A stretch of 64,000 nt of DNA from an uncultured Pirellulaceae bacterium (lineage in GTDB: Bacteria > Planctomycetota > Planctomycetia > Pirellulales > Pirellulaceae). A program made the position numbers and the translations under genes. Below the pieces are notes generated by a model, which saw only the letters and a list, made by a program, of their open reading frames with translations, was not told the DNA's origin and did no database searches. Within the stretch, counting starts at the first letter, position 1; every line of letters starts with the position of its first letter. This document shows positions 6,702-48,041 of the stretch, in pieces. The stretch is from positions 42,632 through 106,631 of the forward strand of contig CAJQQR010000038.1 in the NCBI GenBank assembly GCA_905480545.1, in the 5' to 3' direction.

Positions 6702-7460
6702 ATGACTGACAATCGACGTTCTCATTTGCTTGAAATCGTGCGGACTAAAGGCTTTGCGTCAACGCAAGAGTTAGTTCGAGTGGTTGACGGATCGGAATCC
6801 ACGATTCGCCGTGATTTGGAGCATTTTGAGAATTTAGGCGAGATCAAACGGACTCATGGTGGTGTTTTTTACACTGGATCCGAACCCAAACTTGCACATT
6901 TTGAACGAAATCAATCACAGAACATCGACAAAAAGCGAGAAATCGCAGCCTTAGCGGCGGACCTTGTCGACGACGGTGACACAATATTGCTTGACGGCGG
7001 AAGCACAACATTTGAATTAGCGCAGCAACTGTCGGGACGGCCACTTCAGGTCGTCACAAACTCGTTGCCCGTTTCGAATCTTTTCATCGCGAATCACGAT
7101 GCTGACTTGGTGATGCTTGGCGGAAACGTTCATTTGCGAACAGGAACAACGATTGGCCCTTACGCAAATCAAATGTTGGGTGAACTCAATTGCCGGCTGG
7201 CATTTTTAAGTGTGGCCGGAATCCACGATGATGGTTTCTACAACAGTAATTTCCTGTTGGTCGAAACCGAGAAGGCGATGATGGCGGCTGCAGACGAGGT
7301 CATCGTGATCGCAGACAGTACAAAGTTCGGAAAAAAGTCGCTTGCACGATTGTGTGAGCTAAGCTCAGTACAAAAGCTTGTCGTAGATTCTGGAATCGAT
7401 GACGAGTGGAAAAACCGAATAACCGATGCAGGCGTCAAATTGATTGTATCAGGCGTGTAA
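6702..7460 (+). CDS. DeoR-family transcriptional regulator of the BMC locus
   Basis: 252 residues, usual for the family. The N-terminus is a DeoR winged helix-turn-helix (about 5-57, with RRDLEHFENLGEIKRTHGG). The C-terminal sensor domain has the DeoR signature DGGSTTFELAQQL, then TNSLPVSNLF and the sugar-phosphate-binding fold of the phosphosugar isomerase type. Such regulators usually repress sugar catabolism genes and are released by a phosphorylated intermediate; here a fuculose/rhamnulose phosphate or lactaldehyde-related signal would fit. It is co-directional with and about 90 bp upstream of pduL. Its position at the head of a microcompartment operon matches the arrangement known from other planctomycetes. 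Confidence 0.9.
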   Translation: MTDNRRSHLLEIVRTKGFASTQELVRVVDGSESTIRRDLEHFENLGEIKRTHGGVFYTGSEPKLAHFERNQSQNIDKKREIAALAADLVDDGDTILLDGGSTTFELAQQLSGRPLQVVTNSLPVSNLFIANHDADLVMLGGNVHLRTGTTIGPYANQMLGELNCRLAFLSVAGIHDDGFYNSNFLLVETEKAMMAAADEVIVIADSTKFGKKSLARLCELSSVQKLVVDSGIDDEWKNRITDAGVKLIVSGV

Positions 7461-7480
7461 AAAAAGTGCACAAACATCTT

Positions 7481-7510
7481 TTTTGAGCGTCCACTCATTT
7501 GTACTCAAAA
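7481..7510. promoter_or_regulatory. Inverted repeat between regulator and BMC operon
   Basis: TTTTGAG (7481-7487) and CTCAAAA (7504-7510) form a 7-bp inverted repeat with a 16-nt spacer in the 90-bp gap before pduL. It could be an operator or part of the operon promoter region. The arms are short, so chance cannot be excluded. Confidence 0.3.
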
Positions 7511-7550
7511 CACAAACTAATCGAAACAACCTCGACAAGAACTCGACACA

Positions 7551-8246
7551 ATGAATTCGACTACAATCGACCGAAACACGATTGAGAAAATCGTGCGACA
7601 ACTTGTCTATCAACAAGACAATACATCTGAGTCCTCATCGACCAAACCCGAACTGCGAGTCAGCATTTCTGCACGACACATCCATCTGACCGATGAGCAT
7701 GTCGAGCAACTATTTGGCCCGGGCAAGACGCTAACTCCTGAAAAGGATTTGTATCAAGACGGTTTTTTCGCTGCTGCGGAAACGGTCATGGTCGTTGGTC
7801 CACGCAAACGCATGCTTCCCACGGTAAGAGTTCTGGGGCCTACTAGAAATTTCTCTCAAGTCGAATTGGCCTACACGGACGCAATCTCTTTGGGCATCGA
7901 CGCACCGATTCGGCATAGCGGTGATATCGAGGGAACTCCGGGCTGCCTTTTGGTCGGCCCTCATGGCGCGGTCGAATTGAAACAGGGTGTGATCCGCGCC
8001 GCTCGGCATGTGCACATGAACCAAGATCATGCTGGTTACTTTGGTGTGAAAAAAGGCGACTTCATGAAACTGAAGATCAAGTCACCTGAATGCTCAGTCG
8101 TTTTCGAGGACGTACTCGTTCGAGCCGACGACACCAGCAAACTCGAAGTCCACATTGATACAGATGAAGGCAACGCCTGTGCTCTTGATCTGGCATCCAA
8201 AGTCGAACTGGTCAAACAGGACTGCTCATGTGGCTGCAAAAAATAA
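7551..8246 (+). CDS. pduL: PduL-type phosphotransacylase (microcompartment cargo)
   Basis: 231 residues. It converts acyl-CoA plus phosphate to acyl phosphate plus CoA, recycling CoA inside the shell; here lactyl-CoA or propionyl-CoA is the likely substrate. The two PduL half-domains each carry a histidine zinc motif: SARHIHLT (H43, H45) and AARHVHMN (H153, H155, with H160 nearby). Residues 1-22 form an amphipathic helix ([16 protein letters not shown]) followed by a Ser/Thr-rich linker, the typical N-terminal encapsulation peptide. An unusual feature is the extreme C-terminus, which ends C-S-C-G-C-K-K with three closely spaced cysteines. First gene of the BMC operon, followed by the shell genes. 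Confidence 0.93.
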
Positions 8247-8304
8247 CGAAGACAATTTTTCTGACGATTTAGAACAACTTTCACTTTTTTCGGAGACCTA
8301 TCAA

Positions 8305-8613
8305 ATGGCCAAAGCCTTACAGTCGCTGGGCATGATCGAAACCAAAGGCTTCATCGCCTTGATTGAAGCCTCGGATGCGATGCTTAAAGCTGCAGACGTG
8401 CAATTCCTTGGTTGGGACAAAGTTGGCAGCGCACTTGTTGCTGCGTTTGTCACCGGTGATGTTGCAGCGGTAAAAGCTGCGACCGATGCTGGCGCTGCTG
8501 CTGCAAGCCGCGTTGGCGAAGTCGTGAGCGTTCAAGTCCTTCCACGACCTCACGAAGACCTACCAACTATTTTGCCTAAGCTCAAATTCGGAACTTCGCG
8601 AGCAGCAAAGTAA
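8305..8613 (+). CDS. BMC-H hexameric shell protein (PduA-like)
   Basis: 102 residues from the ATG at 8305; an open frame further upstream overlaps pduL and is not credible as protein. The sequence follows the BMC-H fold closely: [37 protein letters not shown] and [15 protein letters not shown]. The central pore loop reads KVGSALV where PduA has KIGSGLV, so the pore should be small and polar. These subunits form the flat hexagonal facets and let small metabolites through. The C-terminal tail after the fold ([10 protein letters not shown]) is basic. It lies 58 bp after pduL and 100 bp before a second, shorter BMC-H gene. Confidence 0.93.
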
Positions 8614-8713
8614 CGAATCCAAGCCAAGCATCAGATCTCTGATGTATCGCGTCAACATTCAGCAAAACATCATTGCCAATAAACGTTAATTAAAACAAAT
8701 CAAGGAAAGCAAA

Positions 8714-8977
8714 ATGCAATCTGCTATCGGACTTATCGAAACCAAAGGCCTGGTTGGCCTAGTTGAAGCAACCGACGCAATGGCCAAAGCAGCCAACGTC
8801 AAAATTGAAAAACGAGTCGACATCGGCGGCGGACTAGTCACCACCGTGGTATCGGGTGACGTTGGAAGTGTTCGTGCCGCTGTTGAAGCCGGTGCCAATG
8901 CAGCCACGCAAGTCGGCGAACTGATCGGCAGCCACATTATCCCACGTCCAGCCGAAGGCCTGATGGAAAGCTTCTAG
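8714..8977 (+). CDS. BMC-H hexameric shell protein
   Basis: 87 residues, a minimal single BMC domain: SAIGLIETKGLVGLVEATDA, GDVGSVRAAVEAGANAATQV, IIPRPAEGL. The pore loop reads DIGGGLV, an all-glycine pore that differs from the GSA pore of the preceding paralogue, so the two facets may differ in permeability. A purine-rich AAGGAAAG precedes the ATG. With the 102-residue paralogue and three vertex proteins this gives a shell with no tandem-BMC (trimeric) protein, as known for the planctomycete-type compartment. Confidence 0.94.
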   Translation: MQSAIGLIETKGLVGLVEATDAMAKAANVKIEKRVDIGGGLVTTVVSGDVGSVRAAVEAGANAATQVGELIGSHIIPRPAEGLMESF

Positions 8978-9051
8978 TTGATTGGCTTGAGTTCGAATAA
9001 CGATCGCACTCAAGCCAATGACCACCCCGTGAAAGAAAAGGATTTTCAATC

Positions 9052-10236
9052 GTGAAAGTACTCGTTGCCAATCTTGGTTCAACCAGCTTTAAGTATCGCT
9101 TGTTCGATATGACAAACGAAGCACAGCTTGCGCGCGGAGGCGTCGAGCGAATTGGAGAAGATCTCAGTCCTTGTTTTGTCGAGATCGGTGAACATCGAAG
9201 TGAAATGGAAACGCCCGTTCCTGATCATGCCGTCGCGGTCAAGCAATGTTTGACGCAACTGACAGATCCAGAACAGGGGTGCCTTCAAGACGCTTCGGAA
9301 GTCAGCGCGATTGGTTTCAAAGCGGTACATGGTGGCCGAATTAGCGGTGTCCACAGAGTTGACGAAAACGTTCTCGAAGCAATGACGGAGATGAACGAAA
9401 TCGCACCAGCTCACAATCCTCCGTACATCAATGCGATGCGGACCCTTTCGGAAAAGCTTCCGGAGATCCCACTGGTTGCGGCGTACGAAACGGGTTTCCA
9501 CCAAACGAATCGAGATGCGGTCAAATATTACGGCATCCCCTTCGAATGGGCGGAAGATTTCCATGTCAAACGATGGGGGTTTCACGGTGCAAGTCATCGT
9601 TATATCGCAAATCGAATGGCAGAGCTTTTAGGTCGAGAAGATGCACGAGTGATTTCATGCCACCTCGGCGGATCCAGCAGTCTCTGTGCGATTCGCGGAC
9701 GAGAAAGCGTGATGACATCAATGGGAATGAGTCCGCAAACCGGTCTCCTTCACAATAATCGATGCGGTGACTTCGATGCGTTTGCCATACCCATGCTAAT
9801 GGAAAGAACTGGCAAAACGCTAACGGAAGTCATTGATGAGCTTTCGAGCAAGAGTGGACTTTTGGGACTTAGTGGCGTCAGTGGTGATTGTCGAGATCTA
9901 GAAGAAGCTGCAGCCAACGGAAACAAACGAGCACAACTTGCTCTGGATGTTTTTGTTGCGGACATACGGAGATACATCGGATCGTTGTTGATCGAACTTG
10001 GTGGATTGGACGCATTGGTTTTTACCGGTGGCATCGGGCAAAACGGGCAAGGCATTCGCCGTGATGCATGTGCGGGACTAAGCGAATTGGGAATCGATTT
10101 GGACAACGAAAAGAACTCAGTACGAGGTGAAGAATTTTCGGTGCATTCCGATTCGTCGCGAGTGTCGATTTGGGTCGTTCCTACGAATGAAGAACTGGTC
10201 GTCGCAAGGCAGACAAAGGAACTTTTGGAAGGTTAA
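9052..10236 (+). CDS. ackA: Acetate/propionate kinase family protein
   Basis: 394 residues, full length for the ASKHA acetate kinase family. It starts at a GTG behind AAAGGATTTT. Visible signatures are [17 protein letters not shown] (phosphate 1), the FHGASHRY region with active-site residues, [13 protein letters not shown] (phosphate 2) and [16 protein letters not shown] (adenosine). It converts acyl phosphate plus ADP to acid plus ATP. In this operon it would use the lactyl or other acyl phosphate made by PduL and supply the ATP yield of the pathway. Only two bases separate it from the next gene (a vertex shell protein), so they are co-translated. It has no obvious encapsulation peptide and probably acts outside the shell. 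Confidence 0.93.
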
Positions 10237-10238
10237 TC

Positions 10239-10550
10239 ATGTTCATTGCAAAAGTCACCGGTTCAATGGTCTCGACTCAAAAGGTCGAATCGATGGTTGG
10301 GCACAAGTTAATGATCGTCGAACCTTTTCGACTTGCATCTGGCTCACGCAAAAAGCTTGAGACCACCGGTCGCACGTTTGTTGCTGTCGATACCCTAGGC
10401 TCAGGCGTTGGTGATTTTGTTCTGATCACACAAGGCTCCAGCGCACGACTAACTCCCGAAACAAAAAACATGCCGATTGATACGATCATCGTCGGGATCG
10501 TCGACACCGTAACCGTTGAAGAAAAAAGTGTTTACAACCGCGAGGATTAG
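10239..10550 (+). CDS. BMC-P pentameric vertex protein (EutN/CcmL family)
   Basis: 103 residues with the EutN/CcmL fold: start FIAKVTGSMVSTQKVESMVG, then KLMIVEP, VAVDTLGSGVGDFVLITQGS and IIVGIVDTV. Pentamers of this family cap the twelve vertices of the icosahedral shell. It lies 2 bp after the kinase gene. It is one of three paralogous vertex genes in the operon and is longer than the 85-residue copy, with an insertion around SGSRKKLETT. Confidence 0.93.
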   Translation: MFIAKVTGSMVSTQKVESMVGHKLMIVEPFRLASGSRKKLETTGRTFVAVDTLGSGVGDFVLITQGSSARLTPETKNMPIDTIIVGIVDTVTVEEKSVYNRED

Positions 10551-10610
10551 ATCCAAGCGAAGAAATTCGCCGCAAACTTAATCCGTCCGAAAACAAAATA
10601 AGCAAGAATC

Positions 10611-12047
10611 ATGAATCAAATCAACGAAGCACTTATCCGAAACGTCGTGACTCAAGTGTTGGCTGAGGTCAACAAGGGTGCACACGCTGCTCCCAAATCG
10701 CATGCTGGCAAGCATGGCGTTTTTCACGACGCCAATGAAGCCGTCGCTGCCGCGCACGAAGCGTTTGAGCAACTTTCAACGCACGGGATAGAAACCCGAA
10801 AGCGAATTATCGATCACATTCGACGCATCTCAATCGATCAATGTGTTGAACTTGGCACCATGGAGATGGAAGAGACCAAGATTGGGCGCCTCGAGCACAA
10901 GATTGAAAAGCTCAAGACATTGGGGGCACGATCGCCCGGAACCGAATTCATGTCCAGCCAGGTCTATAGCGGTGATCGCGGACTTGCCGTGATTGAACAT
11001 GCACCGTTCGGTGTGATTGGTGCAATTACACCCGTCACTCACTCACTCCCAACGATCACAGGCAACTCAGTCAGCATGATCGCGGCCGGAAACACCGTTG
11101 TTGTCAATCCACATCCGAGTGGCAAAAAGGTTGCCGCCGAAGGCGTTAGACGATTCAACGAAGCCATCTACAATGACATTGGTATCGATAATTTGATTTG
11201 CGTTATTGCCGAGCCAACACTTGAAACCGCTGACATCATTTTTAAACATCGTGACGTCCGTTTAATTTGCGTAACGGGCGGACCAGCAGTGGGCCGGGCT
11301 GCACTTCGATCTGGCAAACGAGCAATCGTTGCTGGCCCGGGGAATCCTCCCGTTGTTGTGGACGCGACAGCCGACCTCGACCGAGCGGCCCAATCCATTA
11401 TCGCCGGCGCGGCATTTGACAATAACTTGTTATGCATTGCAGAGAAAGAAGTTTTTGTTGTTGAATCGGTTTTCGATCAAATGATGAATGCGATGGAACG
11501 TGCCGGTGCCCTTCGATTGAACTCTACGGAAGTCGATCGCTTAACCAGCCAAGCGATCGTAAAAGTTGGCGACGACAATCACGACGCTGCCGCAAAAGAA
11601 TTTCTGGGCCAAGACGCATCGAAACTCGCGCAAGCGGCCGGCAAATCATTCACAGGTTCGCCTGAATTGGTCTTTGGCGAAACCGACGAATTCAACCCCT
11701 TTGTTCCTGTCGAACAAATGATGCCATTCCTGCCATTCGTCCGGTGCAAAAATGTCGACGAAGCAATCGAAAAAGCCCGCGAATACGAACATGGCTTCCG
11801 ACACACCAGCATCATCCATTCGCACGATGTTCGAAGCATGACTCGAATGGGCAAGATTCTCGATACAACTTTGTTTGTCAAGAACGGACCATCAATGGCC
11901 GGACTTGGTCTCGGAGGCGAAGGTTACTTGTCGTTTAGCATTGCAGGCCCAACTGGCGAAGGCGTCACGACTCCATTAACTTTCACTCGCGAACGCCGCT
12001 GCTCGATCATCGAGGACTTGTGCATTATTGGCAAACCAAAAGACTAA
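10611..12047 (+). CDS. pduP: CoA-acylating aldehyde dehydrogenase (PduP-like)
   Basis: 478 residues. It oxidises an aldehyde with NAD+ and CoA to acyl-CoA; lactaldehyde is the expected substrate here. Residues 1-20 ([20 protein letters not shown]) form the N-terminal encapsulation helix, followed by a short Ala/His-rich linker. The ALDH core shows [37 protein letters not shown] and the catalytic cysteine in [12 protein letters not shown] (C275). The NNLLCIAEK form is typical of EutE/PduP rather than of hydrolytic ALDHs. It lies between two vertex-protein genes, 60 and 48 bp away. Key signature enzyme of the compartment. Confidence 0.94.
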
Positions 12048-12095
12048 CGAAAACAGGTCAGGACCGCTTTTAGATCACTCACCCAATGAAACAAA

Positions 12096-12353
12096 ATGTT
12101 AAAAGCCACCGTGATTGGTCGTGCAACCGCGACCGTCAAACACCCAAGCATGAGCGGGCAGAAACTTTTGATCGTTCAGCCGCAAATGAAAAACGGATCG
12201 CCTGAAGGCGACCCTTTGATTGCGATTGATGGATTTGGCGCAGGGGTTGGTGAGGTGGTCATCATCACAAGCGACGGCAGAAATGCCCGTGCGATTTTGG
12301 ATGCCGATGCAACGCCAGTACGCTGGTCAATCATCGGGATCAAAGACGAATAA
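12096..12353 (+). CDS. BMC-P pentameric vertex protein (EutN/CcmL family)
   Basis: 85 residues, the compact form of the family: LKATVIGRATATVKHPSMSG, KLLIVQP, AIDGFGAGVGEVVIITSDG and WSIIGIKDE. It should form pentamers at shell vertices. The presence of three paralogues suggests mixed or specialised vertices. Confidence 0.93.
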   Translation: MLKATVIGRATATVKHPSMSGQKLLIVQPQMKNGSPEGDPLIAIDGFGAGVGEVVIITSDGRNARAILDADATPVRWSIIGIKDE

Positions 12354-12382
12354 CTTACACAACCAAAAAAACTTTACGAATT

Positions 12383-13090
12383 GTGAGCGCAACAATCCAA
12401 CAACACGATCCCAAAATCGTTGAAACGATTGTTCGCGAAGTATTGCTTCGTTTGAAATCGGATCTTTCGTTTGAAAATCCGGTCAGCAGCAAGCCGATAC
12501 GACACACGAGTACAGACGAAACGAACGGTAATCATTCAGTTTGCTTAACGGACAAAGTGGTTACCCTTGAAAGCTTGCGAGGCAAACTTTCCGATACAAA
12601 ACAAGTGCGAGTGCAGTCATCAGCAATTGTCACTCCAGCAGTAAAAGATGAACTTCGTCAGCTAAAAATCGAGTTGATTTTTAACGCGAAGAAGCAAGAT
12701 CGAAACAAAAATCGTCAGCTTTGCGTTGCTCGACTGACCGATCATTTCGTTGCAACGGAATGGTTAAAGCCAATCGGTTCCGTTTCGGTTTGTTGCGGTG
12801 ACAACTATGAACAAGTCGCAGCCAATTTGGTCGATCAACTTTGCCTCGATCGAAATACTGCTTCGGAAAGACATGAAGACGCAAAACCTGAAAAAGCGAT
12901 TTGCATCGCGGCACACCCATTCGTAGCCGGCGCCTTGCTTAATCGGGAGCAACAATTGAGAGCAGCATTTGCACGAACGGAACGTGAAGTTTCGGAAATC
13001 AAAGCAACGCTCAACGCGAATGTATTGATTCTTGAATCCAATCAAAGTCGGAGTGATCAATTCAAGCTGATTGAGAGCTTCTTGAAGTAA
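12383..13090 (+). CDS. BMC operon protein of unknown function, cargo candidate
   Basis: 235 residues from a GTG start 29 bp after the vertex gene. The N-terminal helix (DPKIVETIVREVLLRLKSDL, about 9-28) closely resembles the encapsulation helices of PduL and PduP in this operon and is followed by a hydrophilic linker. Next comes a stretch of the form VVTLESLRGKLSDTKQVRVQ then SSAIVTPAVKDELRQLKIEL, a pattern I associate with several BMC accessory proteins (EutQ/EutT-like ends). The C-terminal half includes CIAAHPFVAGALLNREQQLR and EIKATLNANVLILE, faintly reminiscent of RpiB-type sugar isomerases, but I cannot confirm that. It has no signal peptide. A luminal enzyme, scaffold or chaperone are all possible. 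Confidence 0.7.
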   Translation: MSATIQQHDPKIVETIVREVLLRLKSDLSFENPVSSKPIRHTSTDETNGNHSVCLTDKVVTLESLRGKLSDTKQVRVQSSAIVTPAVKDELRQLKIELIFNAKKQDRNKNRQLCVARLTDHFVATEWLKPIGSVSVCCGDNYEQVAANLVDQLCLDRNTASERHEDAKPEKAICIAAHPFVAGALLNREQQLRAAFARTEREVSEIKATLNANVLILESNQSRSDQFKLIESFLK

Positions 13091-13116
13091 CCGTTCAAGG
13101 GATTAGTGAAAACAAA

Positions 13117-13428
13117 ATGAGAATTGCCAAGGTTGTCGGAAAAGTCACTTTGAATCGCTGCCATCCGTCATTTGACGGAGCAAGCTTGCGTTTAGTGATT
13201 CCACAAACCCTGGCCAACTTGACGGGGAAAAGCCAATCTGATTCGGACTCGCTGGTTTCATGGGATGAAATGGGAACCGGAGAGGGATCTACCATTTCCA
13301 TCGCCGAAGGGCCTGAAGCTTCACAACCGTTTCGCCCCGAAGTGAAAGCGGTCGATTGTTATGTGTCAGCAATTCTCGATGAAGTGTCGCTGGATAAAAC
13401 AGCACTTAAACAAATCAAAACAAAATAA
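13117..13428 (+). CDS. BMC-P pentameric vertex protein (EutN/CcmL family), divergent
   Basis: 103 residues; MRIAKVVGKVTLNRCHPSFD, LRLVIPQ, VSWDEMGTGEGSTISIAEGP and YVSAILDEV follow the EutN/CcmL pattern. It is the most divergent of the three copies: the usual GAG.GD...... motif reads GTGEGSTISIAEG and there is an acidic insertion (KSQSDSDS). It lies 26 bp after the unknown cargo-like gene and 39 bp before the aldolase gene, so it is clearly part of the same operon. Confidence 0.9.
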   Translation: MRIAKVVGKVTLNRCHPSFDGASLRLVIPQTLANLTGKSQSDSDSLVSWDEMGTGEGSTISIAEGPEASQPFRPEVKAVDCYVSAILDEVSLDKTALKQIKTK

Positions 13429-13467
13429 CGAATCAAATCCAAAAGAAATTCAACCACGGAAAAAACC

Positions 13468-14340
13468 ATGGAAAACGTCTTTAAATTGAAGCAGGATATC
13501 TGCGACATCGGCAAGCGGATTTACGATCGCGGATATGCCGCAGCGAACGATGGTAACATCACCGTCCGTATCGGCGAAAACGAAGTCCTCTGCACACCGA
13601 CAATGACTTGCAAAGGATTCCTGAAAGTCGATGACATCTGCACGATCGATATGACGGGTAAACAACTCTCGGGTCGAAAGAAACGCTCGAGCGAGGCACT
13701 GCTTCATCTTGAAATCATGAAGAAACGGCCGGATGTCAAAAGCGTCGTTCACTGTCACCCGCCGCACGCAACCGCATTTGCCGTTGCTCGCGAACCCATT
13801 CCACAATGCGTTCTTCCCGAGGTTGAAGTCTTCCTTGGCGAGACGCCTATCACCAAATACGAAACACCCGGCGGTAAAGAATTCGCCGAAACCGTATTAC
13901 CATTCGTTGAAAAAACCAACGTCATCATTCTCGCGAACCATGGCACGGTAAGCTACGGTGAAAACGTCGAGCGGGCCTACTGGTGGACCGAAATCCTAGA
14001 TTCCTATTGCCGAATCTTGATGCTTTCCAAGCAACTTGGAAATGTCGAATACCTGAACCAGCAAAAATCTCAGGAGTTGCTGGACCTTAAAGAAGCTTGG
14101 GGATGGAAAGACCCTCGCAATACCAAAGAGTATGAAGATTGCGATATCTGTGCGAACGACGTCTTCCGTGAAAGCTGGAACGATACTGGCGTTTCCCGAA
14201 CCGCATTTGATGCTCCACCAGCGATGTCAAAAACACCAGACGCACCGACGGCAGCTTCTGCTGCGTCAAACATTGACCAGGAAGCACTCGTCAAAGCAAT
14301 CACTGACCAAGTGATGCAACGACTGCAGGCCAACAGTTAG
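13468..14340 (+). CDS. Class II aldolase (fuculose/rhamnulose-phosphate type) with C-terminal targeting helix
   Basis: 290 residues. The catalytic domain is of the L-fuculose-phosphate aldolase/adducin family: GYAAANDGNITVRIG, the Glu in KKRSSEALLH (E76), VVHCHPPHATAFAVA (H95, H97) and ANHGTVSYG (H158), giving the complete Zn2+ ligand set. The expected reaction is cleavage of fuculose-1-P or rhamnulose-1-P to dihydroxyacetone phosphate and L-lactaldehyde. After residue about 235 comes an Ala/Pro/Thr-rich linker and a terminal helix (NIDQEALVKAITDQVMQRLQ) that resembles the N-terminal encapsulation helices of PduL and PduP, so this is a C-terminal encapsulation peptide. That implies aldol cleavage happens inside the shell and confines lactaldehyde. 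Confidence 0.92.
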   Translation: MENVFKLKQDICDIGKRIYDRGYAAANDGNITVRIGENEVLCTPTMTCKGFLKVDDICTIDMTGKQLSGRKKRSSEALLHLEIMKKRPDVKSVVHCHPPHATAFAVAREPIPQCVLPEVEVFLGETPITKYETPGGKEFAETVLPFVEKTNVIILANHGTVSYGENVERAYWWTEILDSYCRILMLSKQLGNVEYLNQQKSQELLDLKEAWGWKDPRNTKEYEDCDICANDVFRESWNDTGVSRTAFDAPPAMSKTPDAPTAASAASNIDQEALVKAITDQVMQRLQANS

Positions 14341-14442
14341 GCATCCGCTTCGTCCGGATTGCGACCAACTTATACAACGCGTCAAAAGCAAAGTTTGATC
14401 GCGAACAAATCAAAAACTCAAACCACGACATAGGCAAGTAAA

Positions 14443-15384
14443 ATGAAAGTTAGCATTATCGGCGGAGGCGGGTTAGTCGGTTCATGTGCGGGGTTCGCAA
14501 TACAATGTGGCGGAATCGTTCGAGAAATCGCGCTACTTGATGTGAATGCTGATCTTGCGGGCGGCCAAGCCCTCGATATGCTTCACGGCGGACCAAGTAT
14601 TGCGGACCAAGTCATTTCATCAGGCGGATATGAGCACATTCCAGATAGCGATGTAATTTGCATCACCGCTGGACTTCGCCGTCAACCAGATGAAAGCAGA
14701 CTTGACCTGATCAATCGAAACACCGATTTGTTCATGTCGATCTTAAATGACGTCAAAGCAGCTGGTCCCAAAAGCTCAGCTGTTGTGCTCGTTGTTTCTA
14801 ACCCAGTCGACATTCTGACTTATCTTGCCGCACAGCGATTGGGACTTCCATCCAATCAAGTCATTGGATTGGGCACGCAACTGGACACCATCCGCTTCCA
14901 AAGCCTCATCGCTCAAGACCTTGGAATTCAACCAACTCAAACGTCCGCGATTATCTTGGGTGAACATGGCGAAAGCATGGTCCCGATCTGGTCGAGTGCA
15001 ACAGTCAACGGACTGCCGCTTGATAAGTTCCCAGGCTGGAATGCAAACAAAGCGACTGAACTTTTCACTCGTACGAAAGGGTCGGGAGCAGAAGTTATCA
15101 AAAAGAAAGGTGGCGCAGGATTCGCAGTCGGAATTGCAATCCGCGATGTGATTCACGCCGTGGCACTCAACTCAAATCAAATCCTTCCTGTCTCATCTGT
15201 GCAAGACGGAAAGTGTTACGGCATTCGCGACGTTGCACTTTCGGTACCGACAGTGGTTGGAACCGGCGGCGTGATTGCTCGTCACGAAATCGCACTTTGG
15301 CCCAAAGAAGAACAGGGACTTAAACGTAGCGGCAGTGTTCTGCGACAAACGCTGGAAACAGTAATGAAGCGAGTCGGAGCGTAA
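14443..15384 (+). CDS. LDH/MDH-family NAD-dependent dehydrogenase
   Basis: 313 residues, full length. A Rossmann start (VSIIGGGGLVGS), then the mobile loop TAGLRRQPDESRLDL, NPVDILTY, the LDTIRF motif (D148, R151) and the catalytic His in LGEHGESMVP (H175). At the position that separates lactate from malate dehydrogenases (Gln102 versus Arg102 in LDH numbering) it has Arg (R80), the malate-type residue. In the BMC context it should balance NAD+/NADH, but the natural substrate is open: lactate/pyruvate, malate/oxaloacetate or another 2-hydroxyacid. It has no targeting helix. Last gene of the operon, 102 bp after the aldolase. Confidence 0.88.
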   Translation: MKVSIIGGGGLVGSCAGFAIQCGGIVREIALLDVNADLAGGQALDMLHGGPSIADQVISSGGYEHIPDSDVICITAGLRRQPDESRLDLINRNTDLFMSILNDVKAAGPKSSAVVLVVSNPVDILTYLAAQRLGLPSNQVIGLGTQLDTIRFQSLIAQDLGIQPTQTSAIILGEHGESMVPIWSSATVNGLPLDKFPGWNANKATELFTRTKGSGAEVIKKKGGAGFAVGIAIRDVIHAVALNSNQILPVSSVQDGKCYGIRDVALSVPTVVGTGGVIARHEIALWPKEEQGLKRSGSVLRQTLETVMKRVGA

Positions 15385-15496: not shown

Positions 15497-16360
15497 ATGG
15501 AAATTATTATCACTGCAGTTGGTCCTGACCACAAAGGCCTGGCCGACCCGATCGTTCACCATGTCACCGAAATTGGGGCGAACATTTCTGAGATTCAGAT
15601 GTTCGATCACCGCGAGGAAGCGATCTTTGCGATGATGCTGCGAATGGATTGGGATATCCAATCCAACGACGAAGCTATCGAAAAGCTGCGCGGCGTGATG
15701 ACGCAAATTGCGGCAAACAAAGAACTCTCCATCCGAGTTTGGTCACCCGACGAGCGAGCTGACAAACCGAACATTGCCATCTGCGTGACTCACCGCTTAG
15801 AAACTCCGCTCGCCATTTTGCACGCGATCAAAAGTGGAGAATTGAATGCAAACCCTGCGGTCATGATCGGAAACCGCGATACCTGCAAAGAGATCGCCGT
15901 TCAAAACAATATCAATTGGCACAACATCGGTGATGAAAATGGAACTGCAGACGACGAGAAGATGGTCGAGCTTTTCGATCAATACAAAGTCGATTACGTA
16001 GCGTTGGCGAGATATATGCGGGTCCTACCTGCAGAAAGTTGTTGGAAGTATGCGGGCGGAAGAATCATCAATTTGCACCACGGTTTGCTTCCCAGCTTTC
16101 CCGGGCTCAAACCCTACCACGACGCATACTCGGTCAACATGTTGACCTTTGGATGTACCTGTCACTTTATCATTCCAGAACTGGATGCTGGAAACCAGAT
16201 TATCAATCAGTCGACATTCAGCGTCCTGCCAGGAACGCCACTGAAAAAAATCATTCGCATTGGCCAAGCTGACAATGAACCCAAATGTTTGGTCGAAGGG
16301 CTACGCCGCGTCGTCAACCGCGAAGTCAAATTGCACTTTCATCGTGTCGTTGCAACATAG
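15497..16360 (+). CDS. purU: Formyltetrahydrofolate deformylase
   Basis: 287 residues, the usual length. An N-terminal ACT domain (about 1-80, IIITAVGPDHKGLADPIVHH) is followed by a formyltransferase-like hydrolase domain. Catalytic-region motifs are INLHHGLLPSFPGLKPYHDA (Asn and His) and FIIPELDAGNQIIN (Asp). It hydrolyses 10-formyl-THF to formate and THF, setting the balance of one-carbon units. In place of the common HHSFLPSF it has HHGLLPSF, a conservative change. It follows the BMC operon in the same direction but after a 112-bp gap, and no role in the compartment is known, so I treat it as a separate unit. Confidence 0.85.
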   Translation: MEIIITAVGPDHKGLADPIVHHVTEIGANISEIQMFDHREEAIFAMMLRMDWDIQSNDEAIEKLRGVMTQIAANKELSIRVWSPDERADKPNIAICVTHRLETPLAILHAIKSGELNANPAVMIGNRDTCKEIAVQNNINWHNIGDENGTADDEKMVELFDQYKVDYVALARYMRVLPAESCWKYAGGRIINLHHGLLPSFPGLKPYHDAYSVNMLTFGCTCHFIIPELDAGNQIINQSTFSVLPGTPLKKIIRIGQADNEPKCLVEGLRRVVNREVKLHFHRVVAT

Positions 16361-16395: not shown

Positions 16396-18729
16396 CTACT
16401 TTGAAAACTCGTCATTCATAATCGGATAAGATTTCCAATCTTTGTAATCGAAGTGCCACCATTCGAATTGGTAAATGGTAAAGCCCTCGGATTCCATCGT
16501 TCGGCGTAGCAGTTCGCGATGCCAGCGAGCCCAAGAAGAATCAACTGGGTAGTTTGGAAATGAGCGTGTTGAGAATTCGTCGTAACCGGCACCCATCCAT
16601 AGCGGTTGACCGGTTTTCAAATCGTAAAGCGTAAGATCGACCGCACAACCGCGGTTGTGTCGGGAACCACTTTTAGGGTTTGCCACAAAGATTTTCATAT
16701 CAGCTGGCGTTGCGTCCCAAAACATTTTGGTCACAAACCAAGGGCGATATGCATCGTGAATTAGCAGACCATACCCTGCTTTTTTTAGCTTGCGGTGCGC
16801 CCGAACCAATGCCTCGGCCGCCGATTTTTGCATGAATGCGGCTTCCCGAGAATAAAAGGTCGCGTTCATGAAGTTGTTATCCGACGCATAACGAACATCG
16901 AGTTTGATTGAGTCATCGAGCTTAACAAGCTCAACCAATTCGGGCTTCCGAAGATCGCGTGACTCTTTCGGTGGCAAACCTGCTTTAGCAATTGGGCGCA
17001 GTTCGTCGACAGGCGTCACTGGAACGATTTTAAACGTTTCGCCGTTTTTTGTTCCGACTTCTCGGCGTTTAAATACAACTTTGGCTGCCTCGACCTGACT
17101 TGCCGACCCATCATTATCGGCAAAGATCAATTGCTCGCCATGATAAAGACCATAGTCAGGGAATTGAAAAACATTATCGGAAATTTCAGTCAACGGATAC
17201 TGAAAGAACCACTCAATCGTACACCACAATTGGCCATGTTTTTCGTAAACAAACAGTGCGTTGTGATCCCAACCGTATTCGCCAAATAACCGCTGCAATT
17301 TGGCTGGAGGTTTCTCAGGTTTATCATTTTCAATTCGTGAATAAGTGGAGTTTCCTATTTTGAGTTTTTGATCGCCTGCCAATTCAATCGTCGGGCCAAA
17401 TCCAAACTCATCGTCGCAGATCATTGATGATTTTTCCGAACGAACGTCTCGAATGTATTCACCCAAATCGACAACAAGCTTTTCATTTCGCTTGAAGAAC
17501 TCGATGCGTTTACCTTGATCCGATTGATATGCCCCGACCAAAGTCCTCGCGCGAATATCGTCTACCGCACCACTAACCTTGTAGCCTGGCGAATCCATCC
17601 CTCCGCTTATCGCGATCAACTCGTTCAACGCGTATTTACTGATTCGAGAAACGACGCCGTTGGTGATGTCTTTGGAAGACGCCGCTATCACCCCTATTTT
17701 TTTACTGGGTAGAGCCAACCAATGTGTTGAATAACCATACACTGCACCGCCATGACCGATCGCAAGGTTGCCTTCGAAATCAGAAAGCGCGAATCCAATT
17801 CCAAATGCGTTCTTTTGTTTTGAAAATTGCGGCTCAACCATTTCGGCAAATCGTTTTTCCGAAATAATCCTAGCCTTCTCCCCTACCCCGCCGTTAAAAA
17901 TCGCCATCATGAATTTGCTCAAGTCATGGACGCTGGAGTAAAGATTTCCTGCTGGCGCGATCCCCAGTTTGAAATTAGGTGCTTCAAATGTTCGACCATC
18001 GTAAGTCCACATCTGACCGACCGCCAATTTTGATTTCACGCGATCATCAAAATTGAAACTGCTTTCATTCATCCCAGTGGGTTCAAGTATCGACTCCTTA
18101 ATGACCGTTTCGAACGGCTTTTCGGTCACGTTCTCCAGAACCCGACCAACAACCGTGATGCCAGCGTTTGAATATTTAGTTTTTGATTCTGGCTCATAAA
18201 CCAGTGTCGTACCATTCAAACTTTCGACGGTCGCTTTGACACTCGGTTCATCGGGATCAAAGTAATGCCCGACCGGCGACTCACGAACCAATCCAGAGCG
18301 GTGCGACATTAATTGGCGAAGCGTAATCTTCTTATCGTAAGGATTTTTCGGATTGAATTCTGGAGCGTATTTGCGAACGTCTTCATCCAGATCGACTTTT
18401 CCTTGATCAACCAATTGCATCATCGCAAGATCGGTGAACAACTTCGAGACGGAACCAACACGGTATACCGTATGTTCATTGGCAACTCGATCAGATTTTG
18501 TGGCAGCATTTGGTTTTGCAGTGCCAAATCCTTTCTCGAACACAATTTGTTGATCAACGACTAATGCTATCGAAAAAGCAGGAATCGACTTTTCTTCGAT
18601 TTCTCGAGATATTATTCCGGAGAGCCGCTCGGCCAGTTTCGCATATTTCGTGGCATCAACTTGTGCGCGACTTGTAGAAAAGAAGAGAAAAACCGACAAC
18701 AAAAATCCCAATATCGTTTTCAACGGCAT
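16396..18729 (-). CDS. Class C beta-lactamase-type serine hydrolase fused to VanX-type D-Ala-D-Ala dipeptidase
   Basis: 777 residues from the ATG at 18729; a TTG six codons upstream is possible. A signal peptide (PLKTILGFLLSVFLFF, cleavage near SRAQ) sends it to the periplasm. The first domain (about 30-380) is a serine beta-lactamase/D,D-peptidase: SVSK (about 93-96) as SxxK, YSNAG as YxN, and GHGGAVYGYS as the third motif. A middle beta-rich region (about 390-560) matches the DUF3471-like tails often seen behind such domains. The C-terminal domain (about 575-775) has the M15D signatures: the SxHxxGxAxD zinc motif as SRHNRGCAVD, and EWWH as ExxH. A two-enzyme peptidoglycan hydrolase is the natural reading; substrate order is inference. 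Confidence 0.85.
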   Translation of the reverse strand: MPLKTILGFLLSVFLFFSTSRAQVDATKYAKLAERLSGIISREIEEKSIPAFSIALVVDQQIVFEKGFGTAKPNAATKSDRVANEHTVYRVGSVSKLFTDLAMMQLVDQGKVDLDEDVRKYAPEFNPKNPYDKKITLRQLMSHRSGLVRESPVGHYFDPDEPSVKATVESLNGTTLVYEPESKTKYSNAGITVVGRVLENVTEKPFETVIKESILEPTGMNESSFNFDDRVKSKLAVGQMWTYDGRTFEAPNFKLGIAPAGNLYSSVHDLSKFMMAIFNGGVGEKARIISEKRFAEMVEPQFSKQKNAFGIGFALSDFEGNLAIGHGGAVYGYSTHWLALPSKKIGVIAASSKDITNGVVSRISKYALNELIAISGGMDSPGYKVSGAVDDIRARTLVGAYQSDQGKRIEFFKRNEKLVVDLGEYIRDVRSEKSSMICDDEFGFGPTIELAGDQKLKIGNSTYSRIENDKPEKPPAKLQRLFGEYGWDHNALFVYEKHGQLWCTIEWFFQYPLTEISDNVFQFPDYGLYHGEQLIFADNDGSASQVEAAKVVFKRREVGTKNGETFKIVPVTPVDELRPIAKAGLPPKESRDLRKPELVELVKLDDSIKLDVRYASDNNFMNATFYSREAAFMQKSAAEALVRAHRKLKKAGYGLLIHDAYRPWFVTKMFWDATPADMKIFVANPKSGSRHNRGCAVDLTLYDLKTGQPLWMGAGYDEFSTRSFPNYPVDSSWARWHRELLRRTMESEGFTIYQFEWWHFDYKDWKSYPIMNDEFSK

Positions 18730-18925
18730 GGACCAATCCGCTTTCAAATAAGAACTGAAATGACCAGTAGTACGTCAGACCTGAATTGCAATGTTGCGAG
18801 AGTCGAACCGACTTTGGAATTCCACGCTCTGGCGAGCGTAGCTACCGGTCAATTCAAAATTGATGAACCACTAGCGTTATTTTAGCGTCGAAGATATCCG
18901 AAACAAAACTCAGGACGAAATCGTA

Positions 18926-46704: not shown

Positions 46705-47865
46705 TCAAACCAATGCACCGCGCATTGAAAACTGCACGTTCTTCAGTGGCAAACATTTACGGTGTCGCGTGATGAGTCGTTCGATTTCCGAAAGTTCATG
46801 AATCGCAGTAAAACCTAATTTTTTCACCGCGATTTGATTCGTACAAATAAAGATATTCTGGCTGTCCGAGTCCAGCACCTCGCTCGGATCAAAATCGCTC
46901 GCTTCACCATCAGCGAAACTCTCCAGTGTTCGATCATCGTTCCAAAGCACAACGCAAGTCCCATCCGCACTGCAATAGCTTTTGACCAAATCAACAAGCT
47001 TGATCACTTCGGCGGCGCTACCATACAAATGCGGGCCAATCTCAGCGATAACCAGATCCGCCAATGTCGCGTCGTCGTCCGCCGGGCGATTCGATGAAGC
47101 TGAATTCGATGAAGCGCGATTCGAATCCAATTGCATTCCTTTGAGCGCGTCGATCGCCGCTTTCTGGATCTTCGCTTGAGCACCGATCAAAACGTGATCA
47201 ACATTGGTCCCGTTGTTTGACACAACCAAGGTTCCGAAGATGTTTCCCAGCCAGCGAGAGACTTCTTTTCCAAACGACACCTTCGACCGATCGTTCAATT
47301 TGAAGAACTTCTTTTGACTTTCCCGATCCGAAAAATAGGGATAAAGAAACTCGATTTGGCTCTTCCAACCGTCTCTCTTCGCCATCCCAATCGGAATCAC
47401 AAAATCGGCGTGAACCAATCTGGCGTTCAACAGGATCGCGTCTCCCGATTCGCTCGCAGACAAAAAACCGCTTGCTGCCCGGTCTACCGAATCATGAATC
47501 ACCACACCAACAGACTCCATCCCTGCGTCCGCTAACTCTGCTTCCAACGCTGAAATCGTTGATTTGCCTGTGCCCTCGGCAAGCAAAACGCAAATATTCT
47601 CTGCTTGCACGCCAATATTCTGGACCACCAAAATCACTTCGCGTGCAATCTCAATGCCACATGGCGTCCCCGATTCCAAAACGATACAGACAGTATCCTC
47701 AGGCAAAATCGCGAACTCTAACTGCGGAAATTCAATTGGCGCATCAAGCCCCGCCCGAACCGCTTTCAACACGTCGAAATCAGATTTATCTGCATCACCC
47801 AATTCCACGGCAAGTTTAGCAGGCGGAATTAATTCAAGGACATCGGAAATTTTTATTGCTGCCAT
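46705..47865 (-). CDS. Divergent LarA-like (lactate racemase family) protein
   Basis: 386 residues from the ATG at 47865 (MAAIKISDVLELIPPAK). The longer frame to 48012 overlaps the divergent neighbour and adds a polar segment without homology, so I use the shorter start. The order VCIVLESGTPCGIEIAREVI, ICVLLAEGTGKST, ILLNARLVHADFVIPIGMAK follows the LarA fold, but the usual DxTRP and TGTHR residues that bind the nickel-pincer cofactor are not present. It may bind another ligand or be inactive. A 15-bp imperfect duplication (47089-47118) encodes NRASS-NSASS. Confidence 0.55.
   Translation of the reverse strand: MAAIKISDVLELIPPAKLAVELGDADKSDFDVLKAVRAGLDAPIEFPQLEFAILPEDTVCIVLESGTPCGIEIAREVILVVQNIGVQAENICVLLAEGTGKSTISALEAELADAGMESVGVVIHDSVDRAASGFLSASESGDAILLNARLVHADFVIPIGMAKRDGWKSQIEFLYPYFSDRESQKKFFKLNDRSKVSFGKEVSRWLGNIFGTLVVSNNGTNVDHVLIGAQAKIQKAAIDALKGMQLDSNRASSNSASSNRPADDDATLADLVIAEIGPHLYGSAAEVIKLVDLVKSYCSADGTCVVLWNDDRTLESFADGEASDFDPSEVLDSDSQNIFICTNQIAVKKLGFTAIHELSEIERLITRHRKCLPLKNVQFSMRGALV
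47089..47118. repeat. Imperfect 15-bp in-frame tandem duplication
   Basis: ATTCGATGAAGCTGA (47089-47103) and ATTCGATGAAGCGCG (47104-47118), with ATTCGA again after it. It lies in the LarA-like gene. Confidence 0.7.
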
Positions 47866-48041
47866 AAATTCATGATAACGCTGAGCCGTTTTTTCGGTAA
47901 CCGGCAACCGCGATGCAATTTGCGAACCGGGCTCCCGGATTGGGGATTGAGTCAGCAATCCGATTTCTCGATAATTCCGGGAACGCACATTTTGACAATG
48001 ATAGGGCTGCAATTTTGGCGATTACCCACAACGGCATTATT

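Follow-up and report, generated by a model that had tools for sequence, protein, structure and literature searches.

The closest described system is the gene cluster of Planctopirus limnophila, written pvmABDEGHIJKLMNO, which serves the use of rhamnose and fucose and is thought to be repressed by its DeoR-family regulator PvmA (PMC11958385). It belongs to the PVM type of bacterial microcompartment (BMC) of Axen 2014 and Sutter 2021. The 64,000-nucleotide stretch analyzed here (the window), from contig CAJQQR010000038.1 of an uncultured Pirellulaceae bacterium, carries a locus of 12 genes at positions 6702 to 15384. Judged by its gene content, this locus is a complete, standard PVM-type microcompartment operon, of a kind already known. 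What is new here is a likely PduM-like linker role for the product of a gene of formerly unassigned role, designated protein X (12383 to 13090, forward strand), together with a satellite shell gene, a missing isomerase, and a residue of the malate dehydrogenase type. Our overall reading, to which we give a probability of roughly 0.58, is that this is a complete PVM operon in which protein X, with its PduM-matching module, likely serves as a linker, and that the organelle would split a 6-deoxyketose 1-phosphate into dihydroxyacetone phosphate (DHAP) and lactaldehyde.

All 12 genes lie on the forward strand, with 2 to 102 bases between them, and 11 encode proteins of clear Pfam families, with scores above the curated cut-offs. 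The first is a DeoR-family regulator in the position of pvmA (6702 to 7460; DeoRC, 164 bits; HTH_DeoR, 52 bits), followed by the phosphotransacylase PduL (7551 to 8246; PTAC, 244 bits), two BMC-H shell proteins (8305 to 8613 and 8714 to 8977; BMC, 89 and 91 bits), an acetate kinase (9052 to 10236; 359 bits), the first BMC-P vertex protein (10239 to 10550; EutN_CcmL, 101 bits), a PduP-like coenzyme A (CoA)-acylating aldehyde dehydrogenase (10611 to 12047; Aldedh, 120 bits), the second BMC-P protein (12096 to 12353; EutN_CcmL, 87 bits), protein X, the third BMC-P protein (13117 to 13428; EutN_CcmL, 59 bits), a class II aldolase of the fuculose/rhamnulose-1-phosphate type (13468 to 14340; Aldolase_II PF00596, 156 bits), and an enzyme of the lactate/malate dehydrogenase (LDH/MDH) family (14443 to 15384; Ldh_1_N and Ldh_1_C, 115 bits each). 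NCBIfam cut-offs are also passed by the aldehyde dehydrogenase (NF011927, 622 bits against 403), PduL (NF011652, 249 against 209), and the kinase (TIGR00016, 355 against 293). For the first BMC-H gene, the ATG at 8305 was preferred over the TTG at 8155 of the open reading frame list. The aldolase motifs SE, HCH, and NHG are kept in all 81 aligned sequences. An earlier note on this DNA had named every one of these genes except that of protein X and had described them as codirectional with short gaps, and both descriptions proved correct. Scans for promoters and terminators gave signals no stronger than those from shuffled sequence.

Features of a PVM locus that are present here are the class II aldolase as signature enzyme, a DeoR regulator, acetate kinase, PduL, a core aldehyde dehydrogenase, three BMC-P and two BMC-H proteins, and an LDH/MDH-family gene in the place of the alcohol dehydrogenase. 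When a genome collection was scanned with the aldolase, 297 stretches matched; a relative is encoded in 276 of them, and the best 80 were used as a locus set. These records are mostly labelled as Pirellulaceae and other planctomycetes. The order of the 11 named genes is the same in 52 of the 80 loci, with one swap in 2 more, and many of the remaining 26 are short contigs or contig pieces. Gene content and these 80 relatives support the earlier view of an aldolase-driven microcompartment of planctomycete type, and the operon content matches that of the P. limnophila cluster. A Pfam scan of the operon proteins and of further proteins of the window revealed neither a diol dehydratase nor a glycyl radical enzyme, a search that did not cover the whole genome. 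Compared with the P. limnophila cluster, 12 genes are present here against the 13 letters of its name, the genome here adds a satellite gene for a tandem-BMC protein, and the isomerases were not found.

Protein X taken alone has no Pfam match at an E value of 0.001, no NCBIfam match at 0.1, and no PDB match at 5; at a laxer limit, Pfam LacAB_rpiB appears with an E value of 0.055. The protein comprises a targeting-like N-terminal amphipathic helix (modelled at residues 10 to 28), a module of the PduM/TIGR02536 type at about residues 50 to 103, and a C-terminal domain that is predicted to adopt the RpiB fold. The helix gives weak profile matches to the N termini of diol dehydratase and ethanolamine lyase subunits (E values of 0.04 to 0.07). 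The module, of about 50 residues, matches the models of PduM, TIGR02536, and EutQ. Its hidden Markov model (HMM) matches PduM with an E value of 4e-4, and the protein X of locus L028 aligns to residues 118 to 160 of the 162 of PduM. The module is present in 75 of the 80 loci, and T84, P85, and D89 are invariant in all 38 aligned X proteins.

PduM of Salmonella is located in the core, and without it core and shell come partly apart (PMC9132943 and PMC12108088). Protein X and PduM are alike in having an N-terminal helix (putatively of the targeting type in protein X), the module of about 50 residues, a gene directly before a BMC-P gene (as is also the case for the TIGR02536 gene), and a proposed core-shell role. 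Moreover, in one protein, P0099, a single chain begins with a BMC-P2 domain (Pfam, 6.8e-24; P2 HMM, 2.2e-43) and continues with the helix and the module. This fusion, the adjacency to BMC-P genes, and the role of PduM in Salmonella together point to protein X as a likely PduM-like linker, which would couple the enzyme core to the shell, probably near the vertices. Several points weigh against this reading. The fusion is a single record, protein X diverges fast, and its score lies far below the PduM cut-off (14.5 bits against 50 for the protein of L028). The best E value to PduM among the 38 members is 8.7e-4, the protein in the window has no NCBIfam match, and only 11 of the 38 touch the PduM model at an E value limit of 5. 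The domain order also differs, with the module at the C terminus of PduM but in the middle of protein X, which in addition carries the predicted RpiB-fold domain that PduM lacks. The HMM comparison used PduM and TIGR02536 because their models had already matched, and the same profile had retrieved the module-plus-RpiB proteins P0101 to P0119; neither comparison was therefore blind.

With its predicted RpiB fold, protein X might be an active isomerase of sugar phosphates and provide, inside the shell, the isomerization step that is otherwise missing. RpiB isomerases are indeed found in SPU-type loci (PMC4207490 and PMC8217296). Those of SPU-type and similar microcompartments have, like protein X, the module followed by the RpiB fold, and intact proteins of this architecture (P0101 to P0119) carry the motifs ADHGG, GxGxG, REHNNANVL, and GGRHxRR. 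We take these motifs to be catalytic or phosphate binding in RpiB. Compared with P0101 to P0119, protein X has lost most of them: the GxGxG stretch, REHNNANVL with its His, and the GGRHxRR tail are all gone. The protein in the window retains a DH pair at about the ADHGG site, near the end of the first RpiB strand, but most relatives have not kept it. In 13 of the 75 loci, the whole RpiB-like domain is missing, and protein X stops no more than 40 residues past the module (one of these, L046, lies beside a run of N). Protein X is therefore probably not an enzyme, as far as its motifs tell, and we regard isomerase activity as very improbable.

Since these 13 loci encode protein X without the RpiB-like domain, the helix and the module form its constant part. 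When the short form is modelled alone, its helices and strands follow one another in unchanged order, although the confidence of the model is low (pLDDT of 67.5). A frameshift as the origin of the short form was rejected after the 13 loci were read in three frames, and BMC-P3 follows at once in 12 of them. In L039 (7546 to 7857 and on), an in-frame stop separates the module from the RpiB-like part, which continues after the stop. L052, in which the frame of protein X runs into BMC-P3, was set aside as ambiguous. The loss of the C-terminal domain and the fast divergence would also suit a remnant of a cargo enzyme that is merely carried along by its helix and has no role in assembly. We consider such a remnant improbable, given how widely the module and its three invariant residues are kept and the one fusion to a BMC-P protein.

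A broader proposal goes beyond the linker role that we favor for protein X, and we put it forward tentatively, at somewhat less than even odds. The helix and the VTPAxxDEL module of about 50 residues may be a portable, general linker, which lies terminally in PduM, TIGR02536, and EutQ, is present as well in the RpiB enzymes of microcompartments, and is joined in this case to a dead RpiB domain. Planctomycetes would have recruited an isomerase as the scaffold by which the core docks on vertex proteins, and organelles of this type would run in many species without a known deoxysugar isomerase. How metabolosomes tie their core to the shell is poorly understood except in the Pdu system. In the part of the open-access literature on PduM that was covered, no PVM counterpart of PduM was found. 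If protein X is such a linker, core-shell docking could be tested in an organelle that needs few genes and occurs in a phylum amenable to genetics.

Amphipathic helices occur at the N termini of PduL, the aldehyde dehydrogenase, and protein X and at the C terminus of the aldolase, and they would gather these proteins into the core. The helix measure is not specific by itself, as high values were also obtained inside other N termini and at the C terminus of the LDH/MDH enzyme. As a contrast set, we used 13 stretches around aldolase homologs (48 to 58% identity) from genomes without a match to the tandem-BMC query (see below). The aldolase gene was called in 12 of them: 9 of the proteins stop before the helix, that of L231 is cut by the contig end, and 2 (L219 and L220) have a tag-like C-terminal helix. 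The latter two keep this helix although no BMC match was found in their genomes. Also in these organelle-free genomes, a gene that looks purN-like by eye lies near the aldolase homolog in 9 of the 13 stretches.

From the known enzymology of these families, the aldolase would release lactaldehyde inside the shell, and the PduP-like enzyme would oxidize it to lactoyl-CoA with NAD+. PduL would then form lactoyl-phosphate, from which acetate kinase would yield lactate and ATP. Less certainly, the LDH/MDH-family enzyme would regenerate NAD+ with a 2-oxo-dicarboxylate, for instance oxaloacetate, as its substrate, and not with lactaldehyde or pyruvate. This reading depends on one position, LDH-102, which we take to separate lactate dehydrogenases (Gln102) from malate dehydrogenases (Arg). 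Arg stands there in all 73 sequences of the enzyme and in ten other malate dehydrogenases of the family; Arg109, the carboxylate-binding Arg171, and His195 (LDH numbering) are also kept. A protein at 46705 to 48012 on the reverse strand, about 31 kb from the operon, matches the N-terminal domain of lactate racemase (36.8 bits; cut-off, 23.3) and could be relevant to lactate stereochemistry.

Other evidence speaks against a 2-oxo-dicarboxylate substrate, beyond the dependence on one residue. The loop of the enzyme is ESR, as in LDH, rather than MSR. Over its full length, the sequence is nearest to L-lactate dehydrogenases (TIGR01771, 263 bits; cut-off, 304), which also provide the best PDB chains. 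The assignment runs counter both to the alcohol dehydrogenase role proposed for this gene (PMC4207490) and to the propanediol product, since P. limnophila, according to a review, forms lactate and 1,2-propanediol, implying a lactaldehyde reductase (PMC12078418). The gene was not seen in 4 of the 80 loci; the contigs of L039 and L051 run no further than 0.2 and 1.3 kb, whereas in L034 and L044 about 10 kb of sequence follow the aldolase. L011 and L059 have two LDH/MDH matches downstream of the aldolase rather than one. We also compared a family set of 149 genomes, 120 of which carry the aldolase with an identity of at least 66%. Of the 19 genomes that gave no match to the tandem-BMC query, 17 have one PF00056 gene, G130 has none, and G143, where the aldolase is present, has two; operon-bearing genomes often have at least two, with exceptions down to none. 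Because these numbers differ with the presence of the operon, the operon copy seems to be tied to the organelle. Fe-ADH (PF00465), considered as a recycler of NAD+, was uninformative, with a match in all 149 genomes. The MDH-type residue thus raises the question of how the organelle regenerates NAD+.

The earlier note had expected growth on fucose or rhamnose, with isomerase and kinase genes elsewhere in the genome, and took a lack of these genes as a refutation. For this organism, the expectation finds partial support. The genome (87.6% complete) encodes three FGGY kinases, namely, a glycerol kinase, a xylulokinase, and a rhamnulokinase-like protein (508 bits; cut-off, 528). Genes of the last kind, with more than 400 bits, are found in most genomes of the family, including the operon-free G047, G049, G059, G105, and G181. 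For an isomerase, the RhaA, FucI, and two RhaI models gave no match in this incomplete genome or in the same-genus relative G001, which weighs against our reading of the substrate. Across the 149 genomes, RhaA is strong in 46 and weak in one, and PF02952 matches at any strength in 61 and with at least 100 bits in 19. The Gram-positive RhaI model gives 35 matches, 2 of them strong and none over the cut-off, and the rhizobial model gives 13, with the same 2 strong. A strong isomerase match is present in 44 of the 120 aldolase-bearing genomes and absent from 76; when weak PF02952 matches are counted, the numbers are 62 and 58. Eight of the 17 single-contig genomes lack a strong match, and 7 lack even a weak PF02952 match.

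Because this genome yielded no known isomerase for either sugar and 76 of the 120 genomes have no strong match, the substrate in this organism can only be inferred; either the step falls to an isomerase of some other family, or the organelle has a different substrate. In the latter case, the organelle would work on another ketose 1-phosphate, for example one yielding acetaldehyde or glycolaldehyde, and fucose and rhamnose would not be its main substrates. The missing isomerases suit this alternative, as does the ranking of the aldolase's PDB matches, in which 6voq and 6vop (named only "Aldolase") stand ahead of fuculose-phosphate aldolases. We take both to be DHAP-shunt aldolases. Growth of Crateriforma sp. 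HD03, presumably a member of the Pirellulaceae, points the other way. This marine planctomycete grows on both rhamnose and fucose (PMC12628686), and the operon content is that of the cluster serving both sugars in P. limnophila (PMC11958385). A rhamnulokinase-like gene is present, and an isomerase outside the tested models could exist. A different substrate is thus unlikely, if a good deal less so than isomerase activity of protein X, and the likely substrates of the organelle are deoxysugars, for example rhamnose and fucose. What feeds it in many species of the family is the question that the missing isomerases raise. By eye, no isomerase was seen near the rhamnulokinase-like gene in 21 stretches. 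In 12 of these, including L198, L200, L202, L205, and L206, a gene that by eye resembles a Gfo/Idh-type oxidoreductase was seen, mostly adjoining the rhamnulokinase-like gene. In the genome studied here (G000), an aldehyde dehydrogenase gene on contig C1 (L151, 3604 to 5031) lies about 4 kb from the rhamnulokinase-like gene; the model closest to its product is that of a lactaldehyde dehydrogenase of methanogens (442 bits; cut-off, 650).

The earlier statement that no tandem-BMC protein is encoded holds for the operon, but the genome does encode one on another contig (C228, 14831 to 15517, reverse strand; L003). This lone gene specifies 229 residues with two PF00936 domains in one chain, as in PduT and the engineered tandem protein 6ner; in contrast to these, it stands alone outside the operon, and the linker between its domains has invariant residues (E, NPLI, Q, and V in 25 of 25 aligned sequences). 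Satellite loci were defined by Sutter 2021 and may alter permeability; the main text of that paper, in the part drawn on, makes no mention of a tandem gene for PVM. Relatives with E values of 1e-30 or better occur in 69 of the 149 genomes, four of them as two pieces. They are found in 63 of the 120 genomes with the aldolase against 6 of the 29 without (Fisher P = 0.003, uncorrected for kinship) and in 66 of the 127 genomes with a further BMC match against 3 of the 22 without (P = 0.0009, likewise uncorrected). This co-occurrence suggests that the gene is associated with the organelle, but it is absent from roughly half of the genomes that have the organelle, and it is the only BMC match in G122, G172, and G176 (82 to 89% complete), of which G176 has the aldolase. 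The limited strength of these statistics, like the LDH-like match and the propanediol report, counts against parts of our overall reading. No fixed neighbors of the gene were found among 20 stretches, 17 of which lie around it. A conserved neighborhood was therefore rejected, as neighbors are shared only in pairs (for example, L148 and L152 or L154 and L163) or in scattered clusters of two to four loci.

Directly after the operon lies a gene for a PurU-like formyltetrahydrofolate deformylase (15497 to 16360, forward strand; NF004684, 161 bits; cut-off, 223), which was rejected as a member of the operon, as it has no match above 33% identity among the 80 relatives. Beyond it, at 16396 to 18747 on the reverse strand, a single chain combines a serine beta-lactamase-type domain (208 bits) with a D-Ala-D-Ala dipeptidase M15 domain (117 bits).

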